Part shown: piece after piece, positions 1-20,322 of the stretch | Layout of the letters: each line of letters begins with the position of its first letter | Numbering within the stretch: the stretch's first letter is position 1 | Assembly (NCBI GenBank): GCA_023412495.1 | Contig: JAEYNP010000063.1 | Location: 1-21,645, forward strand | Origin: Pseudomonadota bacterium | Lineage (GTDB): Bacteria; Desulfobacterota; Desulfobulbia; Desulfobulbales; Desulfocapsaceae | Length of the DNA stretch: 21,645 nucleotides | Direction: 5' to 3' | Position numbers and translations under genes: made by a program | The notes under the pieces: model-generated | Seen by the model: the letters and a program-made list of their open reading frames with translations, nothing else | What the model was told of the DNA's origin: nothing | The model's database searches: none

Positions 1-3
1 GAT

Positions 4-122
4 GAGGACTGAGGACCGAGGACTGAGGACTGAGGACTGAGGACTGAGGACTGAGGACTGAGGACTGAGGACTGAGGACTGAGGACTGAGGACTGAGGAC
101 TGAGGACTGAGGACTGAGGACT
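4..122. repeat. Tandem heptamer array, 17 units of GAGGACT
   Basis: Seventeen consecutive 7-bp units of GAGGACT occupy this stretch; only the second unit differs (GAGGACC), and a truncated eighteenth unit (GAGGAAA) follows. The array begins at the window edge and may extend further left. Because the unit is 7 bp, each forward frame meets a TGA every 21 bp, so it is not coding on the plus strand. Near-perfect identity of the units implies recent expansion or homogenisation. Inverted copies lie at 166-195, next to the manC stop codon. Confidence 0.95.
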
Positions 123-165
123 GAGGAAAGGTAAAACGGCCATGTGCCGAAGGGAAGAAAAATTA

Positions 166-195
166 CTCAGTCCTCATAGCTCAGTCCTCAGTCCT
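166..195. repeat. Inverted copies of the heptamer beside the manC 3' end
   Basis: AGTCCTC occurs at 169-175 and 183-189, followed by a partial AGTCCT at 190-195. These are reverse complements of the GAGGACT units at 4-122, separated from them by about 40 bp of ordinary sequence. A transcript running out of manC on the minus strand would carry GAGGACT units followed by AGTCCTC units and could form a long hairpin, which might act as a 3' stabiliser or terminator. That function is inference. Confidence 0.8.
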
Positions 196-3104: not shown

Positions 3105-4001
3105 ATGAAAGGCATAATACTTGCCGGCGGTTCAGGCACCCGACTCTATCCGCTTACCAAAGTTGTCAGCAAGCAGATGCTTCCGGTCTACGACAAGCCG
3201 ATGATCTACTATCCCCTGTCGGTGCTGATGCTTGCGGGGATAAAAGAGATCCTCATTATCTCCACGCCCCATGATCTTCCCGGATTCAAGGAACTGTTCG
3301 GCGACGGGAGCCAACTTGGCCTAACCATCAGTTACGCCAAACAACCGCGTCCCGAGGGGCTGGCTCAGGCCTTTCTTATCGGTAAATCCTTCATCGGCAG
3401 GGATACTGTTGCCCTGATCCTTGGCGACAACATCTTCTTCGGCCAGGGGTTCTCCAGGATACTCAGGGAATGCGCCAAGCTCGAGAATGGCGGGCTGATC
3501 TTCGGCTATTTGGTCAAGGATCCGGAGCGCTACGGGGTGGTGGAATTCAACGGCAACAACGAGGTGGTCAGCATCGAAGAAAAACCGGCCATACCAAAAT
3601 CGAAGTATGCGGTGCCGGGGCTCTATTTCTACGACAACGACGTTATCGCCATTGCCGAGCAGGTCAAACCCTCGGCCCGGGGCGAACTGGAAATCACCGA
3701 CATCAACAACGAGTATTTGCGCCGCGGCACGCTTAGAGTAGAACCCCTGGGGCGCGGCTTCTGCTGGCTGGACACCGGCACCCACGAATCCCTGCAGCAG
3801 GCTGCAAGTTACGTCCAGGCTGTGCAGGAGAGGCAGGGGCTGAAGATTGCCTGTATCGAGGAAATTGCCTACCAGCTGGGCTATATCAACGCCGATCAGC
3901 TGGAAGCGCTGGCCGCCGATATGTTGAAGAATCAATACGGCCGCTATATCACCGAGTTCGTCGCCGAGGAAAAGAACAATACCGGCTCCCATAATAATTA
4001 G
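3105..4001 (+). CDS. rmlA: Glucose-1-phosphate thymidylyltransferase
   Basis: This enzyme catalyses the first step of dTDP-L-rhamnose synthesis, joining dTTP and glucose-1-phosphate. The nucleotide-binding N-terminus ([13 protein letters not shown], then [18 protein letters not shown]) is canonical, as are [12 protein letters not shown] and the [10 protein letters not shown] segment typical of RmlA. At 298 residues it is the usual size. The start is divergent from manB across about 120 bp, which should hold both promoters; no strong ribosome-binding site is visible before the ATG. Its TAG stop (3999-4001) consists of bases of the structured repeat that starts at 3998, so the repeat abuts or has replaced the natural 3' end. 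rmlD follows after the repeat; rmlB and rmlC are not in the window. Confidence 0.95.
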
Positions 4002-4113
4002 TACCTTAGCGATTCGTTTCTTGCTTTTTGAAACGAATCTCGTGAAGGCACTTACCCCCTCTGCTGTGGGTGGGGATAACAGCCCTTGGGTTGCGGGTGT
4101 CAGCCCGAATGAG
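3998..4113 (+). repeat. Structured dispersed repeat, copy A (short form)
   Basis: This is the first of four copies of an intergenic element. It starts TTAGTACCTTAG and ends in a CGAATGAG variant of the CGCATTAG end. Hairpin 1 pairs GATTCGTTTC (4011-4020) with GAAACGAATC (4030-4039). The hairpin 2 segment seen in copies B and D (TACCCC...GGGGTA) is deleted here. A CCCC/GGGG stem and a final GCGGGT/GCCCGA stem follow. Relative to copy B, an A-T pair in hairpin 1 is replaced by G-C on both arms. It sits between rmlA and rmlD and supplies the rmlA stop codon. Confidence 0.9.
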
Positions 4114-4137
4114 ACGGTTCAAGAGTAAGGAGCACGC

Positions 4138-5025
4138 ATGAAAATTGTCATTATCGGCGCCCATGGCCAGTTAGGCACGGACTGCTGTCAGTTATTCTCC
4201 CCCGTGCACGAGACCATCGGCTGCGACCTGCCCCGCATCGATATCGGCAACGAGGCGGTCGTCACGGAATTTCTGTCCGCCCAACGTCCCAACGTCATCA
4301 TCAACTGTGCCGCCTACACGGCGGTGGACGCCTGCGAGCAGGAGGTGCAGCTCGCCTGGCGGATCAATGCCAAGGGCCCGGAACATCTCGCGAGAGCCGC
4401 GGACAGACTGGATTGCCGGCTCATCCACGTCTCCACCGATTACGTCTTCGACGGCAAAAAAACTGTCCCGGAAGCCTATGTGGAAACCGACGCCACCAAC
4501 CCCCTTTCCCAATACGGCAAAAGCAAGCTGGCCGGGGAACAGGCGGTGGCAAGCGGATGCGCCGATCATGCCATTATCCGCACCGCCTGGCTCTACTCGG
4601 CCTACGGTAAGAATTTCCTGAAAACCATGATGAGGCTGGCCCTGGCTGGTCCGGGCCGGGAGTTGAAGGTGGTGGACGATCAGCATGGTTCCCTCACCTG
4701 GTCGAGGACCCTCGCCAGGCAGATCGGCCGAATCCTTTCCTCCGATATCCAAGGCGTCGTCCACGCTACCGCCGAAGGAAATTCGACCTGGTATCAGGCT
4801 GCCAGGTATTTTCTCGATGCGATGGGGATCGGCTACACCATGCGCCCCTGCACCACTGCCGAATATCCCACGCCCGCCCACCGGCCGGCCAACTCGATCC
4901 TGGAAAACGCGGTTCTGAAAAGAGCCGGAATTTCATCCTTTGTGGACTGGCGGGAAGACCTCGACACGTTCGTCGCGGAGTTCAGGGACCAGCTGCTCAC
5001 CGAAGCGCGCAAGGTAAAGGCATGA
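4138..5025 (+). CDS. rmlD: dTDP-4-dehydrorhamnose reductase
   Basis: This NADPH-dependent short-chain dehydrogenase catalyses the last step of dTDP-L-rhamnose synthesis. The Rossmann motif is seen as GAHGQLG (8-14). INCAAYTAVDACE, HVSTDYVFDG and the catalytic YGKSKLAGE (Tyr/Lys pair) are all present, as is the DDQHGSLTW segment typical of RmlD. At 295 residues it is full length. AAGGAG about 6 bp upstream of the ATG gives a strong ribosome-binding site. It lies 136 bp after rmlA, and almost all of that gap is repeat copy A; co-transcription would therefore have to pass through the hairpins. The unrelated pilZ gene converges from the other side. Confidence 0.94.
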   Translation: MKIVIIGAHGQLGTDCCQLFSPVHETIGCDLPRIDIGNEAVVTEFLSAQRPNVIINCAAYTAVDACEQEVQLAWRINAKGPEHLARAADRLDCRLIHVSTDYVFDGKKTVPEAYVETDATNPLSQYGKSKLAGEQAVASGCADHAIIRTAWLYSAYGKNFLKTMMRLALAGPGRELKVVDDQHGSLTWSRTLARQIGRILSSDIQGVVHATAEGNSTWYQAARYFLDAMGIGYTMRPCTTAEYPTPAHRPANSILENAVLKRAGISSFVDWREDLDTFVAEFRDQLLTEARKVKA

Positions 5026-5161
5026 AGACCACCGGCCAGGAGCCTTCCGTTTAAAGCCATTTTTCTCAGATCGAGTCATTTTCGAAACTCAGGCGCAGTC
5101 ATGCATTTAATATTACGAGCATTAATTTTTAAAAATGACAAAGAGATGGGGGAAGGAAAGG

Positions 5162-5184
5162 GCATAACCCAACAGGCTCCTAGC
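5162..5184 (-). repeat. Short dispersed repeat at the pilZ stop codon
   Basis: Read on the minus strand this is GCTAGGAGCCTGTTGG followed by GTTATGC. The same 23-bp stretch, with two transitions, occurs on the plus strand at 9211-9233. In both places the TAG inside it is the stop codon of an unrelated gene (pilZ here, fpg there). Confidence 0.8.
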
Positions 5185-5557
5185 GGTCCTCGTTGTAGCT
5201 GAAATCCTTGATGAGCGAAGAAATGAGTTCCCTCGCGGCCGGATCGAGCTCCTGGATCTGAAAACCGACGAGATAGAAATCGGGATTGGCGTCGTTCTTG
5301 CACCAGCGGCTGGTCGCGGTAAAGATGATCTCGGTCTGATCCTTCATCTGGGTAGGGAGACGCATCCGCAAGCGATAATCCTCGCCTACCGGGATTGGAT
5401 TGTCGCCGACCAGCATAATCCCTTTCTCGGAGATATCGACCAGATGCCCGAGAATCTTACTGCTCATGCCATCGAAGACCCGCAGGTAAAAGACAAGATA
5501 CTTGCGGCTCACTTGGCGCGAATCCCGTTCGTTCCCCGCTCCTTGCCTGGTATCCAT
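5180..5557 (-). CDS. PilZ domain protein (putative c-di-GMP receptor)
   Basis: This 125-residue protein consists of essentially one PilZ domain. The c-di-GMP-binding signature is visible as an RxxxR motif (RQVSR, about residues 14-18) followed by DISEKG (the D/NxSxxG motif) roughly 25 residues later, and the rest fits the PilZ beta barrel (YRLRMRLP, then TATSRWCK). No signal peptide or membrane segment is seen, so it should be a cytoplasmic adaptor that responds to c-di-GMP. The start has AGAGGTG about 6 bp upstream. Repeat copy B lies immediately upstream and separates it from UPF0280, so the pilZ promoter must lie within or close to the repeat. Its target is unknown; control of exopolysaccharide or motility is a guess from context. 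Confidence 0.88.
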   Translation of the reverse strand: MDTRQGAGNERDSRQVSRKYLVFYLRVFDGMSSKILGHLVDISEKGIMLVGDNPIPVGEDYRLRMRLPTQMKDQTEIIFTATSRWCKNDANPDFYLVGFQIQELDPAARELISSLIKDFSYNEDR

Positions 5558-5606
5558 TTCTGCACCTCTTGAAGTTCTTTTATTATGCTATAGCCAAATA
5601 TAGTCA

Positions 5607-5750
5607 CTAATGCGGGCTGACGCCCGCAGCCCAAGGGTTGTTATCCCCTCCCACAGCAGAGGGGACTCTTTTCAGTACCCCCTTGAGGGGTATAAGTATC
5701 TTCACGAAATTCGTTTCTATGAAACAAGAAACGAATTTCTAAGGTACTAA
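5607..5750 (-). repeat. Structured dispersed repeat, copy B (full length, reversed)
   Basis: This is the cleanest copy. In plus-strand order it has hairpin 4 (GCGGGC 5612-5617 / GCCCGC 5622-5627), hairpin 3 (TCCCCTC 5644-5650 / GAGGGGA 5659-5665), hairpin 2 (TACCCC 5676-5681 / GGGGTA 5687-5692) and hairpin 1 (GAAATTCGTTTC 5706-5717 / GAAACGAATTTC 5728-5739, a perfect 12-bp stem). It begins CTAATGC and ends AAGGTACTAA. It lies between the UPF0280 stop and the pilZ start, in opposite orientation to the other three copies. Confidence 0.93.
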
Positions 5751-5792
5751 CCGCAGAGATCGATATTTCCGAATCATCCCGTGGTCTCAGCC

Positions 5793-6572
5793 TTAGACGA
5801 GGCGTACAAGTTCAACATCGCCCACCGCGCCTATCTTTTCACCGCAAACGACCACCACTCCTCCGATTCCGGCGATGGCGCGGCTAACCGCAAGCGCCCG
5901 CCTAATACCCGCCTCTCCTTCAGCGGCCCGGCCGACTTCGTTGCCCAGACGGGTAGCCGCCGCATCGGCCAAGGCGGCGCCTCTGGCAATGACCGTCACC
6001 GAATCGGCCTCGCCGAAGCTGAGGGAGTGGCCCACCTTGCCTGATGACGTACAAACCGCCACCGGCATGGTCTCGGCCGGAAGTTTCACCCCCACTTTCA
6101 GGCTAAGGGGCGACTCGCCGGCGAAGATAGCCACCGTACATTCAGTGGCCCGGCTGATAAATATATCGCCCCCGTTTTCCACCATCACCTCCCGGCAACC
6201 CTCCCTCAGCAGAGCTCGGCCGACATATTCGGCAATCGCTCCCGCCACCGCGGCCATAGGGCCAACACCGGCAATGCTCCCGGCGGTAAGCATATCCCGT
6301 ACTATCGGCGGAGCAAGGATATCATCCGGCAGGGGCGTCAGAGCGGACAGAAACTCCGGATGACGCCGGATATACGTTTCCACCGGCAGCCGAAACTGCA
6401 GGGCCAGCTCGAAGGCCCTGTCCGAAACTTCTCGATCGGCAAGGATATGCAGATCGGTATCTTTCACCCGGGCAAAAGAAGAGAGCAGACGGCTTTCCGA
6501 CGCCAGGGCCCGATAGGTGCGCTCCACATAGGAATGGGGTTGTCTTGCCTTGACGCGTTTCACATCGATCAT
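5793..6572 (-). CDS. UPF0280 family protein (ApbE-like)
   Basis: This 259-residue protein matches the UPF0280 family, which I recall as related to the ApbE flavin-transferase fold; its function is not established. Visible elements are AGVGPMAAVAGAIAE (101-115), ENGGDIF (132-138), CTSSGKVGHSLSFGEADS (174-191) and ARGAALADAAATRLGNEV (197-214). The NGGD motif and the ADAAAT segment resemble ApbE elements. There is no signal peptide, unlike periplasmic ApbE. The ATG at 6572 lacks a strong ribosome-binding site. It lies 74 bp downstream of cvpA on the same strand, and the two may be co-transcribed. A role in flavin or cofactor attachment is only an inference. Confidence 0.8.
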   Translation of the reverse strand: MIDVKRVKARQPHSYVERTYRALASESRLLSSFARVKDTDLHILADREVSDRAFELALQFRLPVETYIRRHPEFLSALTPLPDDILAPPIVRDMLTAGSIAGVGPMAAVAGAIAEYVGRALLREGCREVMVENGGDIFISRATECTVAIFAGESPLSLKVGVKLPAETMPVAVCTSSGKVGHSLSFGEADSVTVIARGAALADAAATRLGNEVGRAAEGEAGIRRALAVSRAIAGIGGVVVVCGEKIGAVGDVELVRLV

Positions 6573-6646
6573 CCGTTAAGCTGAAGCGCTCCTGCCTTCC
6601 CGGGGCAACCGGAAAAGACGCCGGAACTCGGTTCTTCGAAAGGAGT

Positions 6647-7249
6647 TCACGGCCTGGTGGATAGAGGTTGCTGCGGGTTCCGCTCGCCTATGGTCGGTGA
6701 AAGATATCCCTTCACCGCATCGATCGCGATGGCCGGCTGCTTCTGCCGGAGCGCCTTCCTGACTTCCTCGTCGCGGATCAGCCTCATGGTAAACTCAGAC
6801 GCCTCGCCCAAGGGCTGGCAAGTGACACAGTTCTTCTGCAATTCGCTTTCCGGGACCAGTATCGTCCCCAGCATTATATGCAGCAAAACCACCAGAATCG
6901 CCGCCTTGGCAAATCCGACCGCACCGCCAAGCAGGCGATCGAACCAGGAGGTGATTGTCAGCTGAATCACATAGCTCAACATCTTTCCCAGCAACATAAC
7001 CACGACGTAGGCCGCGATAAAGAGGATAACGTAACTGGCGAGGAAAACGATGGTGGGATTCGTCGAAAATTCTCGCAAAATCGGAAAGAGTTTGTCATGA
7101 TGCTGACTTGCGGCGAAGTATCCGACATAGAGGGCGAGCAGCCCGGTAACCTGCCTGAGCATACCCAGCCACATTCCGCGGGCTATGAGTATCGCAAAGA
7201 GACCTAAAATTACCAGATCATACGCTGTCAAGCTCCCGACAACCTTCAT
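6647..7249 (-). CDS. CvpA family membrane protein
   Basis: This 200-residue integral membrane protein has about four hydrophobic segments in its first 135 residues (around 8-28, 33-48, 66-90 and 108-132), with the family-typical YDLVILGLFAILIARGMWLGMLRQ start and FDRLLGGAVGFAKA before the last segment. The C-terminus is a hydrophilic cytoplasmic or periplasmic tail containing a CVTC pair, which is unusual. CvpA proteins are linked to colicin V production and to envelope stress tolerance in other bacteria; the molecular role is unclear. An AGGGG site lies 6 bp before the ATG. A TATAAT (minus strand) about 40 bp upstream may be its promoter. Confidence 0.87.
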   Translation of the reverse strand: MKVVGSLTAYDLVILGLFAILIARGMWLGMLRQVTGLLALYVGYFAASQHHDKLFPILREFSTNPTIVFLASYVILFIAAYVVVMLLGKMLSYVIQLTITSWFDRLLGGAVGFAKAAILVVLLHIMLGTILVPESELQKNCVTCQPLGEASEFTMRLIRDEEVRKALRQKQPAIAIDAVKGYLSPTIGERNPQQPLSTRP

Positions 7250-7427
7250 ATAAGCCCCTGATTCATTTAATCTTCAGCCCCATCCCGGATTATATTTTCA
7301 AGCAAGTTAGCAGGAAGGGTCGAAGCCGCGCAAGTTTTTTCTCTCCCGTGAGGGGCCGACAAACTCGCAGCACAGCATGAGCTTCCACCATGTTTCCGGC
7401 AGGAATCGGCGACCGGGAGAACAACTG
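7250..7427. other. Divergent intergenic region between cvpA and repeat copy C
   Basis: This non-coding stretch separates cvpA (minus) from the plus-strand phosphopantetheinyl transferase gene; with repeat copy C the gap totals about 330 bp. Apart from the candidate cvpA -10 element I see no gene or strong hairpin in it. Confidence 0.5.
7289..7294 (-). promoter_or_regulatory. Candidate -10 element for cvpA
   Basis: A perfect TATAAT on the minus strand lies 40 bp before the cvpA start, in an otherwise GC-rich context. The -35 region (TTCCTG at 16 bp spacing) is poor, so this is only a candidate. Confidence 0.35.
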
Positions 7428-7566
7428 TAGTTTTAGAAAATTCATTTCTTGTTTTTCACCCCTCAAGGGAGTGCTGAACCGAATAAGAATGAATTTCGTG
7501 AAGGTAGATCCACTCTGCTGTCGGAGGGGATAACACCCTTGGATTGCGGGCGTCAGCTCGCATTAG
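7428..7566 (+). repeat. Structured dispersed repeat, copy C (rearranged)
   Basis: It starts TAGTTTTAG and ends CGCATTAG. Hairpin 1 pairs AAATTCATT (7438-7446) with AATGAATTT (7488-7496); compared with the other copies a G-C pair has become A-T on both arms. The hairpin 2 module (CACCCCTCAAGGGAGTG) lies inside the loop of hairpin 1 (7451-7484) instead of after it. The hairpin 3 and 4 region (CTCTGCTGT, GGAGGGGATAACA, GCGGGCGTCAGCTCGC) is conserved. It ends 13 bp before the preferred start of the phosphopantetheinyl transferase gene. Confidence 0.88.
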
Positions 7567-7579
7567 CCAACCGAAGAAC

Positions 7580-8407
7580 ATGAAGACATTGGATGATCCG
7601 GCCATCGAAAACCAGTTTCCCGAAGCGTTGCGGCGGTTGACCATCAACCGTTTCGAGACGGCTGCCCTCGGCATGACGCTCCTGGACCAGCAGGCTCTCG
7701 GCGACGGTGCGGACTCCGGCCTTCACGGTCGCGCCGCGGCAATTCTGCACGGCCGCGAGATGGCGCAGGCAGAATCCTATCGACTGAGCAAAAGACGGGC
7801 GGAATTTCTGGCCGGCCGAGTCTCGGCCAAATTGGCCCTGGCGCAGTTCTGGGCAGCAAAGGGCTTTTGCCGAGCCCTCTCGTCTGTGCAAATCGTCAAC
7901 GATCCAACCGGACGTCCCTTTATCAGGATGGAGCCTGTCCCCGGGGATAAAATTCGGCAGCCCCCTGAGATCTCCATCTCTCACGGCGGCGGCTACGGCG
8001 CGGCCCTGGCGGCCGATGTGCCCTGCGGCATCGACCTGCAGGAGCAAAGGCACACCCTGCTGAAAGTGATGGGAAAATACTGCATGGTCGAGGAAGACCA
8101 CATTCTCGCGGCCGCCCTGCCGAAAATGGCGCCGCCGGCCCGCTTGTCGCTCCTCTGGACGGCCAAGGAGGCGGCCAAAAAGGCGTGCAGCTCCCGTTGG
8201 ATGCCCGGTTTTCTCGATCTGCTGCTTGAAGGGTTTGAATGTCAGGAAGGCGACTGCCTGGTCCTCGAACTGCGACTGGCAAGGAGGCCGGAAGATTGCA
8301 GGCTGCCCGCGGCCCTCACCGTTCTGGCCACCACTTTTCATAACCACGGCCTGGCCGTCTGCATCATCAACGAGGCGCGCCGCAATGCCGGAACTGCCGG
8401 AAGTTGA
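7580..8407 (+). CDS. 4'-phosphopantetheinyl transferase superfamily protein
   Basis: This enzyme should transfer phosphopantetheine from CoA to a carrier-protein serine. The 275-residue protein has the two-lobe (Sfp/EntD-like) layout: KRRAEFLAGR (71-80), SISHGGGYGAAL (132-143), the Mg-binding GIDLQ (Asp152) and WTAKEAAKKA (193-202, Glu197). It is somewhat longer than typical Sfp proteins (about 225-240) because of an N-terminal extension. An in-frame TTG at 7544 lies within repeat copy C, so I prefer the ATG at 7580, although no strong ribosome-binding site precedes either. The carrier protein it serves (fatty acid, siderophore or polyketide synthesis) is not in the window. Its 3' end overlaps fpg by 23 bp. 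Confidence 0.85.
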   Translation: MKTLDDPAIENQFPEALRRLTINRFETAALGMTLLDQQALGDGADSGLHGRAAAILHGREMAQAESYRLSKRRAEFLAGRVSAKLALAQFWAAKGFCRALSSVQIVNDPTGRPFIRMEPVPGDKIRQPPEISISHGGGYGAALAADVPCGIDLQEQRHTLLKVMGKYCMVEEDHILAAALPKMAPPARLSLLWTAKEAAKKACSSRWMPGFLDLLLEGFECQEGDCLVLELRLARRPEDCRLPAALTVLATTFHNHGLAVCIINEARRNAGTAGS

Positions 8408-9215
8408 AGTCATCTGCCGGGGCCTACGCCCCCACCTGGTGGGTCGGATCGTCACCGGGCTCCTTACCAGCGGCAAAATCCTCCGGGAGGAAATACCCGT
8501 GGAGCGCCTGCGCCAGGAAATGGTGGATCGCCGGATCATCTCGGTGACCCGCCGGGCAAAATTCCTGCAGATCGGCCTGGAATCCGGGGCGGTGGTCATC
8601 ATCCATCTCGGCATGACCGGCAATCTCGGTTTCTTCTCCCCTGCCATGCCGCCGGCCAAGCACGACCATGTCCGGTGGCTGCTCGACAACGGCCTCGAGC
8701 TCCGCTACAATGACACCCGCCGGTTCGGCTCGATCCGAGTTCTCAGCCAGAAGGAAGTCCCGCGGATCGAGGAAACGGTTTACCAGACGACAGGTCCCGA
8801 ACCTTTCGTCGATGATTTCTCCGCGGAGTATCTCCACCGACTGGCAAAAGGCCGGGAGGTGGCGGTCAAGGTTTTTATCATGACCAACCAGGTGGTGGCC
8901 GGAGTGGGCAACATCTACGCCAACGAGAGCCTCTTTCGGGCAGGCATCAGACCGGACCGGAAAGTATCTTCCATCAGCAGAAAGGAATGGGCGAGACTGA
9001 TCACCGCCATCCGGGAAGTCCTCAGCCAGGCCATCGAATGCGGCGGCTCGACCATCAGCGATTTTGTCAACGCCGGGCGGGAAAAAGGCTATTTCCAGAT
9101 CAACTTCAAGGTCTACGGGAGAAGCGGGATGGCTTGCGCAGCCTGCGGCGCCACCATTGCCAAGAAGACTATCGGCGGCCGGGCCAGCTATAGCTGCCCG
9201 AAATGCCAGAGCTAG
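8385..9215 (+). CDS. mutM: Formamidopyrimidine-DNA glycosylase
   Basis: This base-excision repair enzyme removes 8-oxoguanine and ring-opened purines and has AP lyase activity. The N-terminus MPELPEVE provides the catalytic Pro (after Met removal) and Glu. The conserved Lys in RRAKFLQI, HLGMTG, NDTRRFG, GVGNIYANE and the C-terminal zinc finger (CAACG, then CPKC near the end) are all present. At 276 residues it is full length and should be active. The start at 8385 lies inside the 3' end of the upstream transferase gene, so the two are probably translationally coupled; this pairing has no obvious pathway logic. The TAG stop is part of a short repeat shared with pilZ. Confidence 0.95.
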   Translation: MPELPEVEVICRGLRPHLVGRIVTGLLTSGKILREEIPVERLRQEMVDRRIISVTRRAKFLQIGLESGAVVIIHLGMTGNLGFFSPAMPPAKHDHVRWLLDNGLELRYNDTRRFGSIRVLSQKEVPRIEETVYQTTGPEPFVDDFSAEYLHRLAKGREVAVKVFIMTNQVVAGVGNIYANESLFRAGIRPDRKVSSISRKEWARLITAIREVLSQAIECGGSTISDFVNAGREKGYFQINFKVYGRSGMACAACGATIAKKTIGGRASYSCPKCQS

Positions 9216-9233
9216 GAGCCTGTCGGATTATGC
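9211..9233 (+). repeat. Short dispersed repeat at the fpg stop codon
   Basis: GCTAGGAGCCTGTCGG followed by ATTATGC. It matches the minus-strand sequence at 5162-5184 in 21 of 23 positions. The TAG is the fpg stop codon. Confidence 0.8.
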
Positions 9234-9245
9234 GGGGTGGATTGA

Positions 9246-9331
9246 GTGGACAGAGTGGAACTCGTGGACCATGTGGACTGGGTGAGCGCCGAGCAGCCGG
9301 GCGCCATGTCCACCAGGTCCACAATGTCCAC
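9246..9331. repeat. Inverted 9-bp-period GTGGAC / GTCCAC structure
   Basis: GTGGAC-type units start at 9246, 9255 (GTGGAA), 9264 and 9273, exactly 9 bp apart. Their reverse complement GTCCAC starts at 9308, 9317 and 9326, also 9 bp apart. The two arms can pair into an imperfect hairpin of roughly 27-30 bp around a GC-rich centre. It lies between the convergent fpg and moeA genes, where a bidirectional terminator or mRNA end-protector would fit; no T-tract is seen. Confidence 0.75.
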
Positions 9332-9349
9332 AGCCTCCCAGCTAGACCC

Positions 9350-10591
9350 TTATAACGAGATCAAAGGCATGCCGACCACATGGACCTCGACCTGATCCTC
9401 CGCTTCGTACCGGGATTGGCCTGGCGGCAGCAGGATATGGCAATTCGGGGTCTCCAGCCGACCGGCCAGCCGCACCCGGCACAGCCCCCCGGCAATTTGA
9501 AGTACCCCGTCCTTCAACTGCAGGACGTCAGGTTTCTTTATAATCAGCGGATGGAGCAGTGAAGCCCGCGTCTTCTTCGGCCCCTCTTCCTCTACCCCTT
9601 GCATGAAGAGCAGTGCCGGTCCGACCAGGGTGTGCAGGAGGGTGCGCACGGCATGGGGGGGACCGGGCAGGGCAAAGAACAACGTCTCCCCCAGTTGCCC
9701 GAAGAGCATGCGCTTGCCGGGCCTCATGGCCAGTCCATTGAAGAAGACAAGGCCCCCGGATGCCCAAAAAGCCTCCTCCACCAGATCGTATTTGCCGGGC
9801 CCCATACCTCCGGTGCTGACGACTACATCGCCTTGCCACTCCCTCATTTCGGCAAATACGCTCGAGAGTTCGGCAAAGGTATCCCCGGCGATGCCGAAAT
9901 CGTTGAGCGTCGCACCATAGGAGGCGAGGATTCCCGCAAGGAGCAGGGAATTCGAGGATACCTTCTGTCCGCCCTTCAGGCCTTCCGCCGAAATCTTCAG
10001 CTCGCTGCCGGTGCAGAAATAGCCAACCGCAGGGTTGGCGGCGACCCCGATCTCATTGATTCCGCATGAAGAAAGCAGCTCCAGATGCTCCCCCTGCAGC
10101 CGCACACCTCCCCCAACCAGCCGTTCCCCCCGTGCTATCTCGCTGCCCGCAGGGCGGATGAAGGTGGCAGGGACCTGCAGGAGATGCTCCGGGATCGTTA
10201 CCAGGCCATCCTGTTCCACACATTGCTCGAAGGGAACGACCCGTTCGCTGCCCTCCGGCACCATGCCTCCGGTCATTATCCGGCAGGCGGTCCCCGGCAC
10301 CAGCCTCACAACAGGTTCGACACGGCCGGCTGCGATCTCGTCTACTATCCGGAATTGCCATGTCCCCCCTCCGTCGTCAACCGAAGGGATCACATAGCCG
10401 TCGCGAATCGATTCGGCATACCCTGGCACCGGCTGAGGGGCGGGAATATCTGCAAGGGTTCTCCGGCCGAGGGCATCACGAATCTCGACGTCTTCGGAAG
10501 GCAGTCGGCGGAGATGTTCCAGGATGAGCTGCCGCGCCTTCGACAGCGTACATATGATGTCGTCCTCGTGAGGGGTCGTCTTTCTTTGCAT
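9350..10591 (-). CDS. moeA: Molybdopterin molybdenumtransferase MoeA family protein (divergent)
   Basis: MoeA inserts molybdate into adenylylated molybdopterin, in the cytoplasm. The 413-residue protein has family elements in order: SIRDGYV (61-67), RIMTGGMVPEG (104-114), VSTGGMGPGKYD (258-269), MRPGKRMLFG (289-298) and ALPGPPHA (307-314). Several are altered from the usual pattern: GGVSVGDYD is replaced by GGMGPGKYD and LPGNPVS by LPGPPHA. The final Asp of the GxYD motif is kept. This may be a diverged paralogue rather than the housekeeping enzyme, and no other molybdenum cofactor gene is nearby. A weak AGG precedes the ATG. It converges on fpg, with a hairpin structure between the two. Confidence 0.82.
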   Translation of the reverse strand: MQRKTTPHEDDIICTLSKARQLILEHLRRLPSEDVEIRDALGRRTLADIPAPQPVPGYAESIRDGYVIPSVDDGGGTWQFRIVDEIAAGRVEPVVRLVPGTACRIMTGGMVPEGSERVVPFEQCVEQDGLVTIPEHLLQVPATFIRPAGSEIARGERLVGGGVRLQGEHLELLSSCGINEIGVAANPAVGYFCTGSELKISAEGLKGGQKVSSNSLLLAGILASYGATLNDFGIAGDTFAELSSVFAEMREWQGDVVVSTGGMGPGKYDLVEEAFWASGGLVFFNGLAMRPGKRMLFGQLGETLFFALPGPPHAVRTLLHTLVGPALLFMQGVEEEGPKKTRASLLHPLIIKKPDVLQLKDGVLQIAGGLCRVRLAGRLETPNCHILLPPGQSRYEAEDQVEVHVVGMPLISL

Positions 10592-10830
10592 CAGTCAGCA
10601 ACCTGTTACCGCAAGAGTTCATCGATGGTCCGCTCGGCTGCCCGGCAGTCGCATTGCGGGGGCTATTCTTGTATCCTGCGAAGCACCGAAGACCGTGAGA
10701 TTTTTCATCGAAATTTTTCGGGCTCACTCTTTTCGTAAGAACAAACGAGAACATCGCGGCCATAGTATACCCATTGCCGGATGAACTCCAAGGAGAATTT
10801 TTTGGTGCATGACAAGGAAGAACGTGAGCG
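10592..10830. other. Intergenic region upstream of moeA
   Basis: About 240 bp between the moeA start and the 3' end of the sugar transferase gene. I see no convincing gene; it should hold the moeA promoter, but no good -35/-10 pair was picked out. Confidence 0.4.
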
Positions 10831-10850
10831 AAAAGAGGCTCCGAGAAGCC
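10831..10850 (-). terminator. Weak candidate terminator after the sugar transferase gene
   Basis: Directly after the TAG stop, the minus strand reads GGCTTCTCGGAGCC followed by TCTTTT. The stem is only about 4-5 bp, so this is a weak intrinsic terminator candidate. Confidence 0.35.
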
Positions 10851-12230
10851 CTATCTCGAACCCTCCCGGGCAAGGATGGTTTTCGCGGTCTTGAAGATGA
10901 TCAGGAAATCGAAGGCGAGGGACAGATTTTTCATGTAGTAGAGGTCGTATTCCAATTTTTTTAGAGCATCGTGCTCCGAGGCTCCGTAAGGATAACACAC
11001 CTGGGCCCATCCGGTTACCCCCGGCCTGAGCTCGTGCCGGATATCGTAAAATGGAATTTTTTTGACAAGCTCGTCGATGAAGACCTTTCTTTCCGGCCTC
11101 GGCCCGACCAGGCTCATCTCGCCTTTGAAGATATTGATCAGCTGCGGCAATTCATCGATGCGCAGCTGGCGTATCACAGCTCCGACCCTGGTCACCCTCG
11201 GGTCGTTTTCCGCTGCCCACACTGCGCCGTCTTTTTCAGCATCCTGACGCATGGAACGGAACTTAATCACCCGGAACGGTCGATTTTTTTCCCCGACCCT
11301 CTCTTGGGTATAGAAGATCGGTCCGGGGCTTTCCAATTTGATGAGGATGGCGGTGAGTGTCAGAACCGGCAGGGTAATGACAAAGAGTGAAATCGCCGAA
11401 ATCAGATCCACGGTCCGCTTGAGCAGATGCGTGACTCGGCTGGACCGGAAGCCGTCAGAATAGATTATCCAGCTGGGGGGAACTTTCTCCACCAGGATCT
11501 TACCGGTGAGCCTCTCAAAAAAGTTAACCCCCTGCTCTATGAAGAAGCCCCGCATCTTGTATTTAAGCAGGGTCTGAACCGGGGTCTCGCCCCGCGGGTC
11601 ATCGAGGGCGACCACGATCCGCTGCAGTTTATGCCGGCGAAAGAGCTCCTCATAGTCCTCCAGTCGCGGCCGAACGGGTGCCTTGTACGGATTGAAGGAC
11701 GGTTGCCCCGTCCCGACGAAGCCGCATATCCTGTGCACCGAATCCGGAACGCCTTCCACCTCCCTGGCGATATCGGCGGCGAGGGCGCCGGTCCCGACCA
11801 CCAGGACATCTTGAACAAAGTACCGGTTTCGCAGGATAAAATAATACCCTCCTCGCCACAATATAACAGTCAGGCATATACCAACATATCCAATCAGAAA
11901 AATTTTCGTATTAATGATCATATACGGAACAATATAGTATATGGCCGCGAGAATAACACAACCAACTCCAAAGGATTGAACCATACGGGTAAAAGTGTTA
12001 GGAATAGTCAGGTCTCCATTGACATTATAGAGATCGAAAAAATACAGGCAAAGAAGAAAAACCCCAGTAACAAGAAGAGCTCTTGCGGAGTTCATCGGTA
12101 AATCCAGGTAAAAAAGAGTCGATCCCAAGATATACCAATCCACAACCACGAGCGACATAAAAATAAGGAACCCTTCACCCAAAAAAAACACCACGTTCCT
12201 TAATTTGTAATATGAATTGATTATAAACAT
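10851..12230 (-). CDS. Polyprenyl-phosphate sugar-1-phosphate transferase, exosortase-associated EpsB type
   Basis: This membrane enzyme should start exopolysaccharide repeat-unit synthesis by moving a sugar-1-phosphate from a nucleotide sugar to undecaprenyl phosphate. The 459-residue protein has an N-terminal membrane part (hydrophobic segments around 12-30, 50-66, 88-104 and 108-124), a soluble Rossmann-like linker (VLVVGTGALAADIA, 142-155), another membrane segment (275-297) and the C-terminal sugar transferase domain with KFRSMR (323-328), RIDELPQL (357-364), SLVGPRPE (373-380), LRPGVTGWAQ (401-410) and YDLYYMKN (428-435). The layout fits the PEP-CTERM/EpsB family (TIGR03013, from memory). 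The first roughly 120 codons are strikingly AT-rich compared with the rest. No clear ribosome-binding site precedes the ATG at 12230. The donor sugar cannot be read from sequence. Confidence 0.9.
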   Translation of the reverse strand: MFIINSYYKLRNVVFFLGEGFLIFMSLVVVDWYILGSTLFYLDLPMNSARALLVTGVFLLCLYFFDLYNVNGDLTIPNTFTRMVQSFGVGCVILAAIYYIVPYMIINTKIFLIGYVGICLTVILWRGGYYFILRNRYFVQDVLVVGTGALAADIAREVEGVPDSVHRICGFVGTGQPSFNPYKAPVRPRLEDYEELFRRHKLQRIVVALDDPRGETPVQTLLKYKMRGFFIEQGVNFFERLTGKILVEKVPPSWIIYSDGFRSSRVTHLLKRTVDLISAISLFVITLPVLTLTAILIKLESPGPIFYTQERVGEKNRPFRVIKFRSMRQDAEKDGAVWAAENDPRVTRVGAVIRQLRIDELPQLINIFKGEMSLVGPRPERKVFIDELVKKIPFYDIRHELRPGVTGWAQVCYPYGASEHDALKKLEYDLYYMKNLSLAFDFLIIFKTAKTILAREGSR

Positions 12231-12278
12231 ATGTGCGTATTTATTGAAAATAATGAACTTAATGTTTGCTAGGTTTAC

Positions 12279-12306
12279 ATTATATCACCCTTTGAATAAA
12301 AAACAA
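12279..12306 (-). promoter_or_regulatory. Candidate promoter of the sugar transferase gene
   Basis: On the minus strand TTGTTT (12301-12306) is followed after 16 bp by a perfect TATAAT (12279-12284). The start codon is 48 bp downstream. The -35 matches only three consensus bases. Confidence 0.5.
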
Positions 12307-12428
12307 GGTGCGTCACAAAGTCTCACGCTCATTGTCGGAGAAATGCGATAACGGCGAGCCACGGCAAATCCTGAAGAAACAGATTATTGGCGAGGTGCAG
12401 TTGGAGAGCAGATGCCCGAAAACGACAA

Positions 12429-12545
12429 GCCCCTGGCCAGGGCTGACCAGGGGCGGATGTTGCAGGGGCATCTCGAAACGATGTCCCATTGCGGTGGTGC
12501 AGGCGGAACCATCCCCCGACTGCCCCGGAGGGGCTGTCGGGGGAT
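12429..12545. other. Cluster of three strong hairpins in an intergenic region
   Basis: Three successive stems are visible: GCCCCTGG (12429-12436) with CCAGGGGC (12447-12454); GGGGCATC (12465-12472) with GATGTCCC (12480-12487, one G-U); and a 16-bp arm starting ATCCCCCGAC (12511-12526) with its complement (12530-12545, one mismatch) around a 3-nt loop. No run of T follows on either strand, so these are not standard intrinsic terminators. The region 12307-12555 contains no convincing gene. A structured non-coding RNA or a mobile-element remnant is possible. It lies upstream of the candidate sugar transferase promoter, so it would not be in that transcript. Confidence 0.6.
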
Positions 12546-12555
12546 CAGTTCGTGA

Positions 12556-12698
12556 TTAGTACCTTAGAAATTCGTTTCTTGTTTTTTTGAAACGCATTTC
12601 GTGAAGGTACTTATACCCCTCAAGGGGGTACTGAAAAGAGTCCTCTCTGCTGTTGGAGGGGATCACGACCCTTGGGTTGCGGGGTCAGCTCGCATTAG
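12556..12698 (+). repeat. Structured dispersed repeat, copy D (full length)
   Basis: It starts TTAGTACCTTAG and ends CGCATTAG. Hairpin 1 pairs GAAATTCGTTTC (12567-12578) with GAAACGCATTTC (12589-12600), with one mismatch; hairpin 2 pairs TACCCC (12614-12619) with GGGGTA (12625-12630); the hairpin 3 region (CTCTGCTGT, GGAGGGGAT) and a shortened hairpin 4 (GCGGGGTCAGCTCGC) follow. On the minus strand its CTAATGCG end provides the TAA stop codon of the small FnIII gene. Confidence 0.92.
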
Positions 12699-17588: not shown

Positions 17589-18862
17589 GCGTGCGCATCG
17601 GCAGAACACTGCCGCCGGCGGTAGCCTCGATCGGCCTGCGCGATTTAGGCCACGGCCTGCTCGCCATGCGGCGGAAGAACAAGGCGACCGCCGCCTTTAC
17701 CGACGACCTGAAAGAATTCTTCCAGGTCAGCCAGTGCTGGCTGCTGTCGTCGGGCAAGGCCTCGCTGGCCATCATCCTCCAAGCGTTGCGGGAACTCCAG
17801 CCGGAGAAGGATGAAGTGCTCATCCCCGCTTTTACCTGCTATTCGGTCCCTGCCGCCATTTTTCGGGTGGGCCTGAAGATCAGGATCTGCGATATCGAGC
17901 CGGATACGCTGGACTTTGACTACCGGGAGCTTGCCCGTCAGGTATCGGCTCCCCGGCTGCTCTGCGTGATTCCCACCCACCTCTTCGGGGTGACCGCCGA
18001 TATCCCGAAGGTCCGCGCGGTCATCGGCAAGAGAGAGATCGCGATCGTCGAGGATGCGGCACAGGTTATGGGCGGTGAACGGCGGGGCCGGAAAGCCGGC
18101 ACACAGGGCGATGTCGGTTTTTACAGTCTTGAGCGGGGCAAGGCTTTTTCCACCGTGAAGGGTGGGATAATCGTGACTAACTCCCCTGCCATCGGCGAGG
18201 CCCTGAAGAGAAAGGTTGCTGCCATTCCGCCCCCCGGCCTGTCGGAACAATGCATCATGGCATTGTACGCGGCCGCACTTGCGGTCTTCACCCGGCCCTG
18301 GCTGTACTGGATTCCCAAGTCGCTGCCCTTTCTCCGGCTGGGGGAGACGCGTTTCGAGCCGGATTTTTCGATCAAACTGTTGTCCGACTTCCAGTCGGGG
18401 ATGGCAGCGGACTGGCGGAACCGGCTTCTAGAGGATAAGCGATGCAGGGCCGAAAACTCCGCCTTTTTCGAAAAGCTGGGGATTCCCCCAAGCTGCCCCC
18501 CGGAAACGCTCTTCTCCGGACCGCTCAGATATCCCGTCCTGGCGGCGAACCGGGAGAAAAAAATGGCGATGCTCCGGCAAAGCGAACGGCTGGGGCTGGG
18601 GGCCGCGGATGTCTATCCGGGCACGGTGGATACTATCCCCCGCCTCAAGGGATCGATTGTAGGCGGCTGCTCGGTGAAGGCCCGGACAATCGTTGAAAGG
18701 ATCTTCACACTTCCGGTGCACCCACTGGTGACCGGGGCTTATTTGCGGAAAATTGCCGACTTGGCAGGAAACCGGGAAGAGACTGGCGAAAACTACAGAC
18801 AACAACCCAAAATAAAGGAGGCAGGACTCGGTGACGGTATTCAAGAAGATATCAGGCGTTGA
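17585..18862 (+). CDS. DegT/DnrJ/EryC1-type PLP-dependent aminotransferase
   Basis: This cytoplasmic PLP enzyme probably aminates a keto-sugar nucleotide used for the exopolysaccharide. The 425-residue protein shows SSGKASLAI (55-63, cofactor phosphate region), PAFTCYSVPAAI (81-92), VEDAAQ with Asp157, and FYSLERGKAFSTVKGG (179-194), where Lys186 aligns with the Schiff-base lysine of the family. The C-terminal half is less typical. The GTG at 17585 overlaps the FemAB stop by 4 bp; a second GTG 6 bp later is possible. The frame is open further upstream, but that stretch lies inside the FemAB gene. It overlaps the exosortase gene by 32 bp. The sugar substrate is unknown. Confidence 0.85.
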   Translation: MSVRIGRTLPPAVASIGLRDLGHGLLAMRRKNKATAAFTDDLKEFFQVSQCWLLSSGKASLAIILQALRELQPEKDEVLIPAFTCYSVPAAIFRVGLKIRICDIEPDTLDFDYRELARQVSAPRLLCVIPTHLFGVTADIPKVRAVIGKREIAIVEDAAQVMGGERRGRKAGTQGDVGFYSLERGKAFSTVKGGIIVTNSPAIGEALKRKVAAIPPPGLSEQCIMALYAAALAVFTRPWLYWIPKSLPFLRLGETRFEPDFSIKLLSDFQSGMAADWRNRLLEDKRCRAENSAFFEKLGIPPSCPPETLFSGPLRYPVLAANREKKMAMLRQSERLGLGAADVYPGTVDTIPRLKGSIVGGCSVKARTIVERIFTLPVHPLVTGAYLRKIADLAGNREETGENYRQQPKIKEAGLGDGIQEDIRR

Positions 18863-19682
18863 CAGATTGAAGATGCTTTCGCTGCTGCTCTTTTGGCTCG
18901 CGCTCTTCTCTCCTATCTATCCGGACATGGTCCGGGATTGGCTCTCTGACCCGGACAACTCCCACGGCTTCATCGTGCCTTTCGTGGCCTGCTACTTTAT
19001 CTGGAACAGGAGAGACCGGCTCAATCCGATCACCATCGCGGACTCGTGGTGGGGCTGCCTCATGCTGATCGCCACGCTGACCCTGTACGTGCTGAGCGTG
19101 GCGGGCGGCCTGACATTTCCCGCCAGGGTGGCGATGGTACTCTCGCTCTTCGGCCTGGTCTGGTGCATGCTGGGAAATGCAACAATACGTGTTCTGGCCT
19201 TTCCGATCCTCTTCCTGCTGTTCATGATTCCGGTACCCTATTCGCTGATCAATCTGGTTTCCGGCCCCCTGCAGCTCTTGGCCACAAAAATCTCCGCCGG
19301 CGTGATCGCGGCATGTTCCATCCCCGTCTTTCGCGACGGCAACATGCTCTATTTTGTCAGGACACAACTCGAGGTGGCCGAGGCCTGCAGCGGCATCAGG
19401 TCGATCATCTCCCTGTCGATGCTGGCCGTGGCCTTTGCCAGTCTGAGCCAGGCCGGGTGGGCCGGGAAAGCCACCCTGATCCTTCTGGCCATACCGATCG
19501 CCCTGGCGGGCAATATCATCCGTGTCACCGGCACCGGCATCCTTGCTCATTTCTTCGGAGACCGTGTGGCTCGAGGTTTTCTTCACGAGTTTTCAGGAGT
19601 TGCCATCTTCGTCCTGGGATTCGCCGTGCTCTTTTGGATCTATACCCTGATTAACAGAAAGGTATCCGTCAATGTCCAATAA
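18831..19682 (+). CDS. xrtA: Exosortase (XrtA/EpsH family)
   Basis: Exosortases are multi-pass inner-membrane cysteine proteases that process PEP-CTERM-type C-terminal sorting signals, coupled to exopolysaccharide production. This 283-residue protein has about eight hydrophobic segments, the NSHGFIVP motif (43-50), and the proposed catalytic set: Cys186 in EACSGIRS, Arg231 in NIIRVTGT and His252 in LHEFSG. The GTG at 18831 has AAGGAGG upstream, and the start lies inside the aminotransferase gene. epsI follows with an 11-bp overlap. The gene neighbours (deacetylase, FemAB, EpsI) support the XrtA subtype, though XrtB/XrtD cannot be excluded from sequence alone. No protein with a recognisable PEP-CTERM tail lies in the window, so its substrates must be elsewhere. 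Confidence 0.92.
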   Translation: MTVFKKISGVDRLKMLSLLLFWLALFSPIYPDMVRDWLSDPDNSHGFIVPFVACYFIWNRRDRLNPITIADSWWGCLMLIATLTLYVLSVAGGLTFPARVAMVLSLFGLVWCMLGNATIRVLAFPILFLLFMIPVPYSLINLVSGPLQLLATKISAGVIAACSIPVFRDGNMLYFVRTQLEVAEACSGIRSIISLSMLAVAFASLSQAGWAGKATLILLAIPIALAGNIIRVTGTGILAHFFGDRVARGFLHEFSGVAIFVLGFAVLFWIYTLINRKVSVNVQ

Positions 19683-20322
19683 ATCCTATGCCACCTGTTT
19701 GTTGGCAATGATCTTTGCGGCAGGAATCCTGGGCGCCCGCTCGTCGGTCTCGGTGCCTGTCGTCATTCGGACCAATCTCGAAAATCTCCCCATGATGGTC
19801 GACAACTATACCGCCAAGGAGGCCTCCTTTCCCGACGCGGTTTACAGGGAACTCAACGCCGACAAGCATGTTTACCGCCATTACATCTCAGGAAACGGCG
19901 AGTCGGTCAGCCTGTATATCGGCTATTACGGCACGGCGAAAGGCGGCAGGACCGGACACAATCCCTATGCCTGCCTACCCAGCCAGGGTTCCGCGATCGT
20001 CGACACCGATGTGATGTACCTCCGGCAGACCGTCACGGGGAAAGACCTGCCGGTCAACTATGTACTGGCGCGGAAAGATGGAGTCGATACCGTCCTGCTG
20101 CACTGGTACCAAGCGGCGGGCACGAAGGTCATGGCAACGGGACTGATGCAGAATATCGAACGCTTTACCGGCAGGCTCCTCCGCAATCGCGATGACGGCG
20201 CCTATGTGCAGATTTCGTCAGCCGCACAGGGAGATGATGTCTCAAAAACACGAGAGAAGGTAAAGGAATTCGCCGAACGGGTTTTGAATCTGCTGCCGGA
20301 TTACTGGCCCGAGGAACGCTAA
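19672..20322 (+). CDS. epsI: EpsI family exosortase-associated protein
   Basis: The 216-residue protein belongs to the EpsI (DUF3485) family, found either next to exosortases or fused to their C-terminus. It has an N-terminal hydrophobic segment (about 7-22), which may be a signal anchor, and the family region LYIGYYGTAKGGRTGHNP leading into CLPSQG (Cys101), normally seen as a conserved Cys-Leu-Pro stretch. It probably acts in the periplasm with the exosortase, but its role is not known. GAAAGG lies about 8 bp before the ATG, and the start overlaps the exosortase gene by 11 bp. It ends the operon; a strong hairpin lies 34 bp downstream. Confidence 0.9.
   Translation: MSNKSYATCLLAMIFAAGILGARSSVSVPVVIRTNLENLPMMVDNYTAKEASFPDAVYRELNADKHVYRHYISGNGESVSLYIGYYGTAKGGRTGHNPYACLPSQGSAIVDTDVMYLRQTVTGKDLPVNYVLARKDGVDTVLLHWYQAAGTKVMATGLMQNIERFTGRLLRNRDDGAYVQISSAAQGDDVSKTREKVKEFAERVLNLLPDYWPEER

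Follow-up and report, generated by a model that had tools for sequence, protein, structure and literature searches.

A high-copy family of gene-free, probably mobile hairpin repeats in Desulfobulbales-type bacteria

Results

Four related hairpin repeats in one window

The DNA analysed here, which we call the window, is the whole stretch of 21,645 nucleotides of contig JAEYNP010000063.1 (assembly GCA_023412495.1, assigned to the Desulfocapsaceae). Its features include rfbA-like and rfbD-like open reading frames (ORFs) and four copies, A to D, of a repeat made of successive hairpins (Table 1). The results below place these copies in a high-copy, gene-free family of hairpin elements in Desulfobulbales-type bacteria for which we found no description, and suggest that the family is probably mobile. 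Copy A separates the rfbA-like from the rfbD-like ORF; its TTAG includes the stop codon of the former. The RfbA-like protein of the window has 92% identity to its counterpart in the metagenome-assembled genome (MAG) Desulfobacterales bacterium GWB2_56_26, and other named relatives include Desulfoprunum and Desulforhopalus, both Desulfobulbales in the NCBI taxonomy; these names suggest a placement in that order. The nearest genome compared was G077 and the next G076, with 86% and 76% identity, respectively, in a protein that we take to be UPF0280-like.

An earlier reading of the window from its sequence alone had described four copies with shared ends, up to four serial stems and paired changes within the stems. 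The relatedness of the copies, with their positions and strands, was borne out by pairwise matches (copy B vs D, 92% identity across 128 nt; A vs B, 90% across 58 nt; B vs C, 91% across 32 nt) and by an alignment in which all four share hairpin 1 as well as the hairpin 3 and hairpin 4 sequence. As RNA, each copy folds more stably than its dinucleotide shuffles (z of -2.9, -5.3, -4.4 and -4.7 for A to D), and DNA folds of both strands gave z values of -2.8 to -7.2 against shuffled sequence. Other parts of the description hold for some copies only. Copy A ends in CGAATGAG and lacks CATTAG, and copy C has TGTAGTTTTAG instead of TTAGTACCTTAG. Only in B and D does hairpin 2 come after hairpin 1. 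The paired change of G-C to A-T on both arms of hairpin 1 is present in copy C, and so is the G-U pair in its hairpin 4; the paired change in copy A is ambiguous, as the altered bases find other partners in the minimum-energy fold. One mismatch in the inner stem of copy D is without compensation, and in the minimum-energy folds of C and D hairpin 3 is not formed as drawn. The nested layout of copy C recurs among relatives (L186, L187, L202, L203, L210, L214 and L220). Four copies in 21.6 kb is dense compared with 34 in 1.59 Mb of G076, but the window had been selected by a reader.

Table 1. Coordinates of the repeat copies and other features of the window
Feature	Position	Strand	Description
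rfbA-like ORF	3105-4001		stop codon in the TTAG of copy A
Copy A	3998-4113	+	without hairpin 2; 3' end degenerate
Copy A, hairpin 1	3998-4054	+
Copy A, hairpin 3	4055-4075	+
Copy A, CCCTTGGGTT	4083-4092	+
Copy A, hairpin 4	4093-4107	+
Copy B	5607-5750	-	full type; after hairpin 2, hairpin 3, then CCCTTGGG, then hairpin 4; 3' end CATTAG
Copy B, hairpin 1	5750-5693	-
Copy B, hairpin 2 with CTGAAAAGAGT	5692-5665	-
Copy C	7428-7566	+	nested type; hairpin 2 inside hairpin 1 loop; degenerate 5' end; hairpin 3 and 4 sequence present; CATTAG at 3' end
Copy D	12556-12698	+	full type
Copy D, TTAG	12556-12559	+
Copy D, hairpin 1	12556-12613	+
Copy D, hairpin 2	12614-12630	+
Copy D, CTGAAAAGAGT	12631-12641	+
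Copy D, hairpin 3	12642-12661	+
Copy D, hairpin 4	12679-12693	+
Copy D, ATTAG	12694-12698	+
Tandem repeat	3-195		TGAGGAC units; inverted stretch 163-195
Second dispersed repeat	5035-5184
Palindromes	12425-12541		GC-rich
ORFs	18831-20322		exosortase-type and EpsI-type products by appearance (see text)

Copy number and spread

An exact-pattern scan of contigs returned a single MAG record, JAHJLI010000229.1, and led us to the genome referred to as G001; exact patterns miss most copies, so that this count of one is uninformative about spread. G001 has at least 40 strong matches to copy B (the best 40 of 166 candidates), 39 of which cover hairpin 1, and G077 likewise has at least 40 (the best 40 of 74 candidates). 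G076, searched over 1,586,790 bp, yielded 34 copies at E<=0.01, of which 27 had E below 1e-6; this extrapolates to about 140 copies in its 6.5 Mb. With copy D as the query, 38 of 60 family genomes matched at E<=1e-3. A covariance model of hairpin 1, built from 74 copies (75 were listed, less a single row whose layout was different and C-type), matched 100 of the 257 genomes of G001's order at E<=1e-3; these divide into 63 of 93 genomes in G001's family and 37 of 164 elsewhere, the latter mostly with few copies. In a sample of the phylum, 19 of 395 genomes matched at E<=1e-4, three of them family genomes and 16 of them new to that search. For the relatives, therefore, the possibility that no further copies exist, which the sequence-only reading had named as a refutation, is false.

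Copy D had no blastn match in phages or plasmids, and IMG/VR, searched with three exact patterns only, had no match. A match to a repeat family already described was another refutation named in that reading, and neither Rfam nor the papers searched by word provided one. We found no description of the family, although one in wording other than that searched would escape; the repeat is not named in passages of PMC6006769 and PMC3733652, nor in a table row on Desulfotalea in PMC12306157.

A fixed 5' hairpin followed by exchangeable modules

The elements are roughly 70 to 190 nt long and contain no gene. Their layout is a 5' TTAG, a near-invariant hairpin 1 of 58 nt, a set of exchangeable GC-rich hairpins and, after the final hairpin, a 3' TTAG or near form. 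The counts that follow cover distinct hits with a 5' end and at a distance from contig ends, and those of arm copying and gene context are restricted further to hits with a TTG-T loop; the hairpin 1 profile under-counts nested copies and copies with a changed interior. A majority of copies begin TTAGTACCTTAG. The left tetranucleotide is TTAG in 110 of 131 copies and GTAG in one, for a search profile that itself includes the left TTAG bases. In the 74 aligned copies, the outer stem of hairpin 1 is followed by an internal loop (A versus GTG), an inner stem and the loop TTGTTTTTT. The hairpins that may stand 3' of it are CCCGTTTATCGGG, CCCCTTGTGGGG, the pair CCCCTCAAGGGGG and CTGAAAAGAGT, a CCGG...CCGG type or a tail of the type seen in the window. 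The CCCCTCAAGGGGG and CTGAAAAGAGT module occurs 42 times in the loci collected by then: 32 times after hairpin 1, five times within its loop and five times elsewhere. By eye, L032, L058 and L059 keep the outer stem TTAGTRCCTTA...AAGGNACTT around a different interior, some 60-80 nt long, which is perhaps a further structured module. The exchanged hairpins, the nesting within the loop and the altered interiors indicate that each copy is a modular mosaic in which only the 5' part is fixed.

The bases preceding the left TTAG are T-rich, with T at 63% at position -1. In the G076 contigs (1.59 Mb) TTAG itself appears rare, with 1243 occurrences on the G-rich strand and 1122 on the other, so that targets for a TTAG-directed insertion would be few.

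Evidence for mobility

Identical units occur in unrelated surroundings. Three copies of G076 (L188, L189 and L190) are one identical 117-nt unit with flanks only 20-26% alike. In G063, L267 and L269 are likewise identical over an 88-nt unit; their left flanks are 24% alike, the right flank of L267 is cut short by a contig edge, and two other copies, L265 and L270, differ from the unit by 2 and 1 bases, respectively. Amplification has thus been recent in at least two genomes. Comparison of the four window sites with the nearest genomes is consistent with insertion. At site A neither G077 nor G076 has an element. Site C of G076 is empty as well, and in G077, where an assembly gap is close by, none was seen; site D is empty in G077 and not alignable in G076. 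The intergenic space of site B is occupied in G076 by a different subtype; in G077, a neighbouring space holds a copy.

Elements are also found fused. A second 5' end lies within 230 nt in 11 of 182 copies; a control stretch at a distance of 400-570 nt has one. Nine of the 11 are joined where the terminal hairpin ends and have a single tetranucleotide in common, which is TGAG in L031 and TTAG in the other eight; for L057 the second end amounts to an 11-nt likeness only. Among these nine are a run of four (L199) and two pairs (L272 and L273). Simple duplication is not an explanation for L192, L282 and L056, as each is joined to an element with another interior. The earlier suggestion of a non-autonomous mobile element, MITE-like (that is, resembling a miniature inverted-repeat transposable element) or like a repetitive extragenic palindrome (REP), is well supported by the copy number, the identical copies, the empty sites and the fusions taken together.

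A MITE moved as double-stranded DNA, with an insertion sequence (IS) transposase of the DDE type acting on the ends and a 4-bp TTAG target duplication, would account for the TTAG that flanks both ends of many copies. The preferred target of the IS5 group is YTAR, with which TTAG is compatible. However, terminal inverted repeats are absent (the 5' end is TTAG-TACC and the 3' end is hairpin-TTAG), and among eight copies that combine a variant left tetranucleotide with a recognised terminal hairpin, the right end is identical in only one (L034). The single TTAG common to fused copies also weighs against this reading, though not decisively by itself. We regard a DDE-type MITE as distinctly unlikely.

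Gene context and the question of a functional RNA

When 121 copies were compared with simple ORF calls, made without a trained gene finder, those between co-directional ORFs comprised 28 in sense and 35 in antisense orientation; 20 lay between divergent and 19 between convergent ORFs, 15 within a called ORF and four at an edge. Hence 102 of the 117 non-edge copies are intergenic. A functional RNA, or a terminator or attenuator that has spread because it regulates its neighbours, could explain this location together with the strong folds and the conserved loop and bulge. The orientation of copies relative to genes shows no preference, however, which fits a mobile element and argues against a terminator or riboswitch. 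The T-run of hairpin 1 is in the loop and does not follow the stem, and the window has no Rfam match at gathering score; at low thresholds copy D drew 11 matches, every one below gathering score. The structured RNA that had been proposed as an alternative is therefore disfavoured, and we consider a regulatory role as the cause of spread very unlikely.

Covariation and its possible origins

Paired changes had been taken to mean that the fold is under selection. In the alignment of 74 copies, 92.4% of cells pair, compared with 89.5% in shuffles and at most 55.3% with one side slid, and there are 47 doubly changed cells compared with 14.2 in shuffles. Covariation is thus present beyond the shuffled and slid controls, yet 35 of the 47 doubly changed cells belong to one base pair (columns 20 and 40, in which all four Watson-Crick types occur). 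Copying from arm to arm across the asymmetric loop was flagged in five of 125 copies (L030, L140 and L135; less clearly L052 and L143). Template switching between arms can produce paired changes without selection, and the earlier inference holds in part only. Conservation of at least 90%, as in the stem, extends to several unpaired columns of hairpin 1 (the bulge A and GT and the loop TTG..TTT). Across the 74 copies, hairpin 1 is an imperfect hairpin with a conserved bulge and largely conserved internal and hairpin loops. Conservation of unpaired bases points to recognition of sequence and shape together.

Discussion

Our results suggest that the family probably consists of non-autonomous mobile hairpin chains that are handled as single-stranded DNA in a REP- or IS200-like manner. 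We infer a single-strand mechanism of the HUH type, and by this mechanism an HUH nuclease would be the likeliest class of enzyme. Both ends of the element would fold into hairpins in exposed single-stranded DNA, where an enzyme supplied in trans may recognise the near-invariant hairpin 1 and the terminal hairpin and cut beside TTAG. Insertion would occur 3' of a TTAG without further target duplication, as in REP systems and IS200/IS605 systems. The inner hairpins may be passengers, which would explain their exchange. More tentatively, the family could represent an order-wide new class of single-stranded-DNA elements with exchangeable hairpins, a fixed 5' recognition hairpin, several terminal hairpins and TTAG joins, moved by an enzyme outside the known Y1 and Y2 HUH transposases; we rate this broader proposal as possible rather than probable.

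Several results weigh against this reading. TTAG is more weakly conserved at the right end than at the left. No clean empty site was found at base resolution, the relatives being too diverged (the best in the genus is about 80% identical). For hairpin 1, the likeness among copies of one genome (0.91 in G001 and in G076) is only slightly above that between genomes (0.86-0.89), and G077 (0.87) shows no excess. Genes for Y1 transposases (PF01797) are present in 54 of 60 family genomes, but none of the 91 Y1 loci scanned (87 distinct; 279 kb) is flanked by a pair of elements. Only L143 (the same as L231), L149 and L236 hold a copy, 0.3-3 kb from the Y1 gene, whereas about six would be expected by chance at the density of G076. 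Two copy-rich genomes, G080 and G253 (20 and 14 hairpin 1 matches among 21 candidates each), have no PF01797 match, and in G063, which bears fresh copies, PF01797 is limited to two weak fragments; all three assemblies may be incomplete. IS91/Y2 (PF04986) was rejected as the driver, as it is found in seven of ten copy-bearing genomes with no match in G009, G299 and G081. A replication-strand bias, as expected for IS200-like elements, is not evident from the counts. The G-rich strand carries 24 of 34 copies in G076 (18 of 27 stronger matches, p=0.12) and 21 of 36 in G001; the pooled 45 of 70 differ from one half (p=0.022) but not from the WTTAG skew of G076 (p=0.21), and the bias was dropped as evidence because the target itself is skewed.

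Another reading is a classical REP system, in which one of the REP-associated tyrosine transposases (RAYTs, or TnpA-REP), encoded by a resident Y1 gene, might move the element from a distant locus. REPs, bacterial interspersed mosaic elements (BIMEs) and REPINs resemble our family in several respects (compare passages of PMC6006769 and PMC3733652): a tetranucleotide stands at the 5' foot of a hairpin with a bulge, and the repeats are numerous and intergenic, with clusters and tandem repeats. The wide occurrence of PF01797 also agrees with such a mover. In contrast, the tetranucleotide here is TTAG and not GTAG or GTGG, the first hairpin is 58 nt long and chained to extra hairpins, the 3' end is defined by a second TTAG, and no Y1 gene of the family's own was seen adjoining. 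The family thus departs from REP/RAYT systems in both tetranucleotide and adjacent gene, adjacency to a RAYT is unsupported by the loci scanned, and G080 and G253 carry copies without a Y1 match. The REP-type or IS200-like transposase that had been suggested was looked for, and no association with the element emerged; the known Y1 family as the mover is unsupported by location or presence. We consider a classical REP/RAYT system rather unlikely. As a separate observation, L236 is a degenerate copy near an IS200-like fragment, which on inspection looks like chance.

Other known systems resemble the family in part. The Correia, ERIC, NEMIS and RUP MITEs are likewise short, gene-free, intergenic and multi-copy, but their termini are inverted repeats and a TA duplication is usual; neither feature was seen here. 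Palindrome elements derived from IS200/IS605 include the palindrome-associated transposable elements (PATEs) and deletion derivatives. They share with the present family hairpins towards both ends, a fixed tetranucleotide next to the left end and the lack of terminal inverted repeats, and the ends and fusions described above would suit such a derivative. Among the differences, no parent IS encoding TnpA with the same ends was seen at the Y1 loci scanned, in a search that was not exhaustive; two copy-rich genomes have no Y1 match; and by eye, nothing 5' of the terminal hairpin stands out as a clear guide sequence. The structurally atypical repeats of class 3 and subclass 2.6 TnpA-Y1 proteins, as presented in passages of PMC6006769, also have non-GTAG hairpins, and those of class 3 are high-copy. 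They are recognised beside their Y1 genes (PMC6006769), a neighbourhood not seen for the family described here.

The family is frequent in these genomes and recently active in at least two. It provides a test case for how hairpin repeats spread without an adjacent transposase, and for whether selection or copying between arms is the source of the paired changes in such repeats. Through the stop codon supplied by copy A, it is also in contact with an operon.

The window has further features (Table 1). The last ORFs listed lie in what looks like an exopolysaccharide gene cluster; judged by appearance, one product is an exosortase-type membrane protein and another is of the EpsI type. The 7-bp tandem repeat near the start has about 18 units. 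Two palindromes stand directly before copy D and are perhaps ordinary terminators. Downstream of the rfbD-like ORF is a second dispersed repeat, of ~147 nt, which is found at eight further places in G077 and G076 with 74-85% identity.

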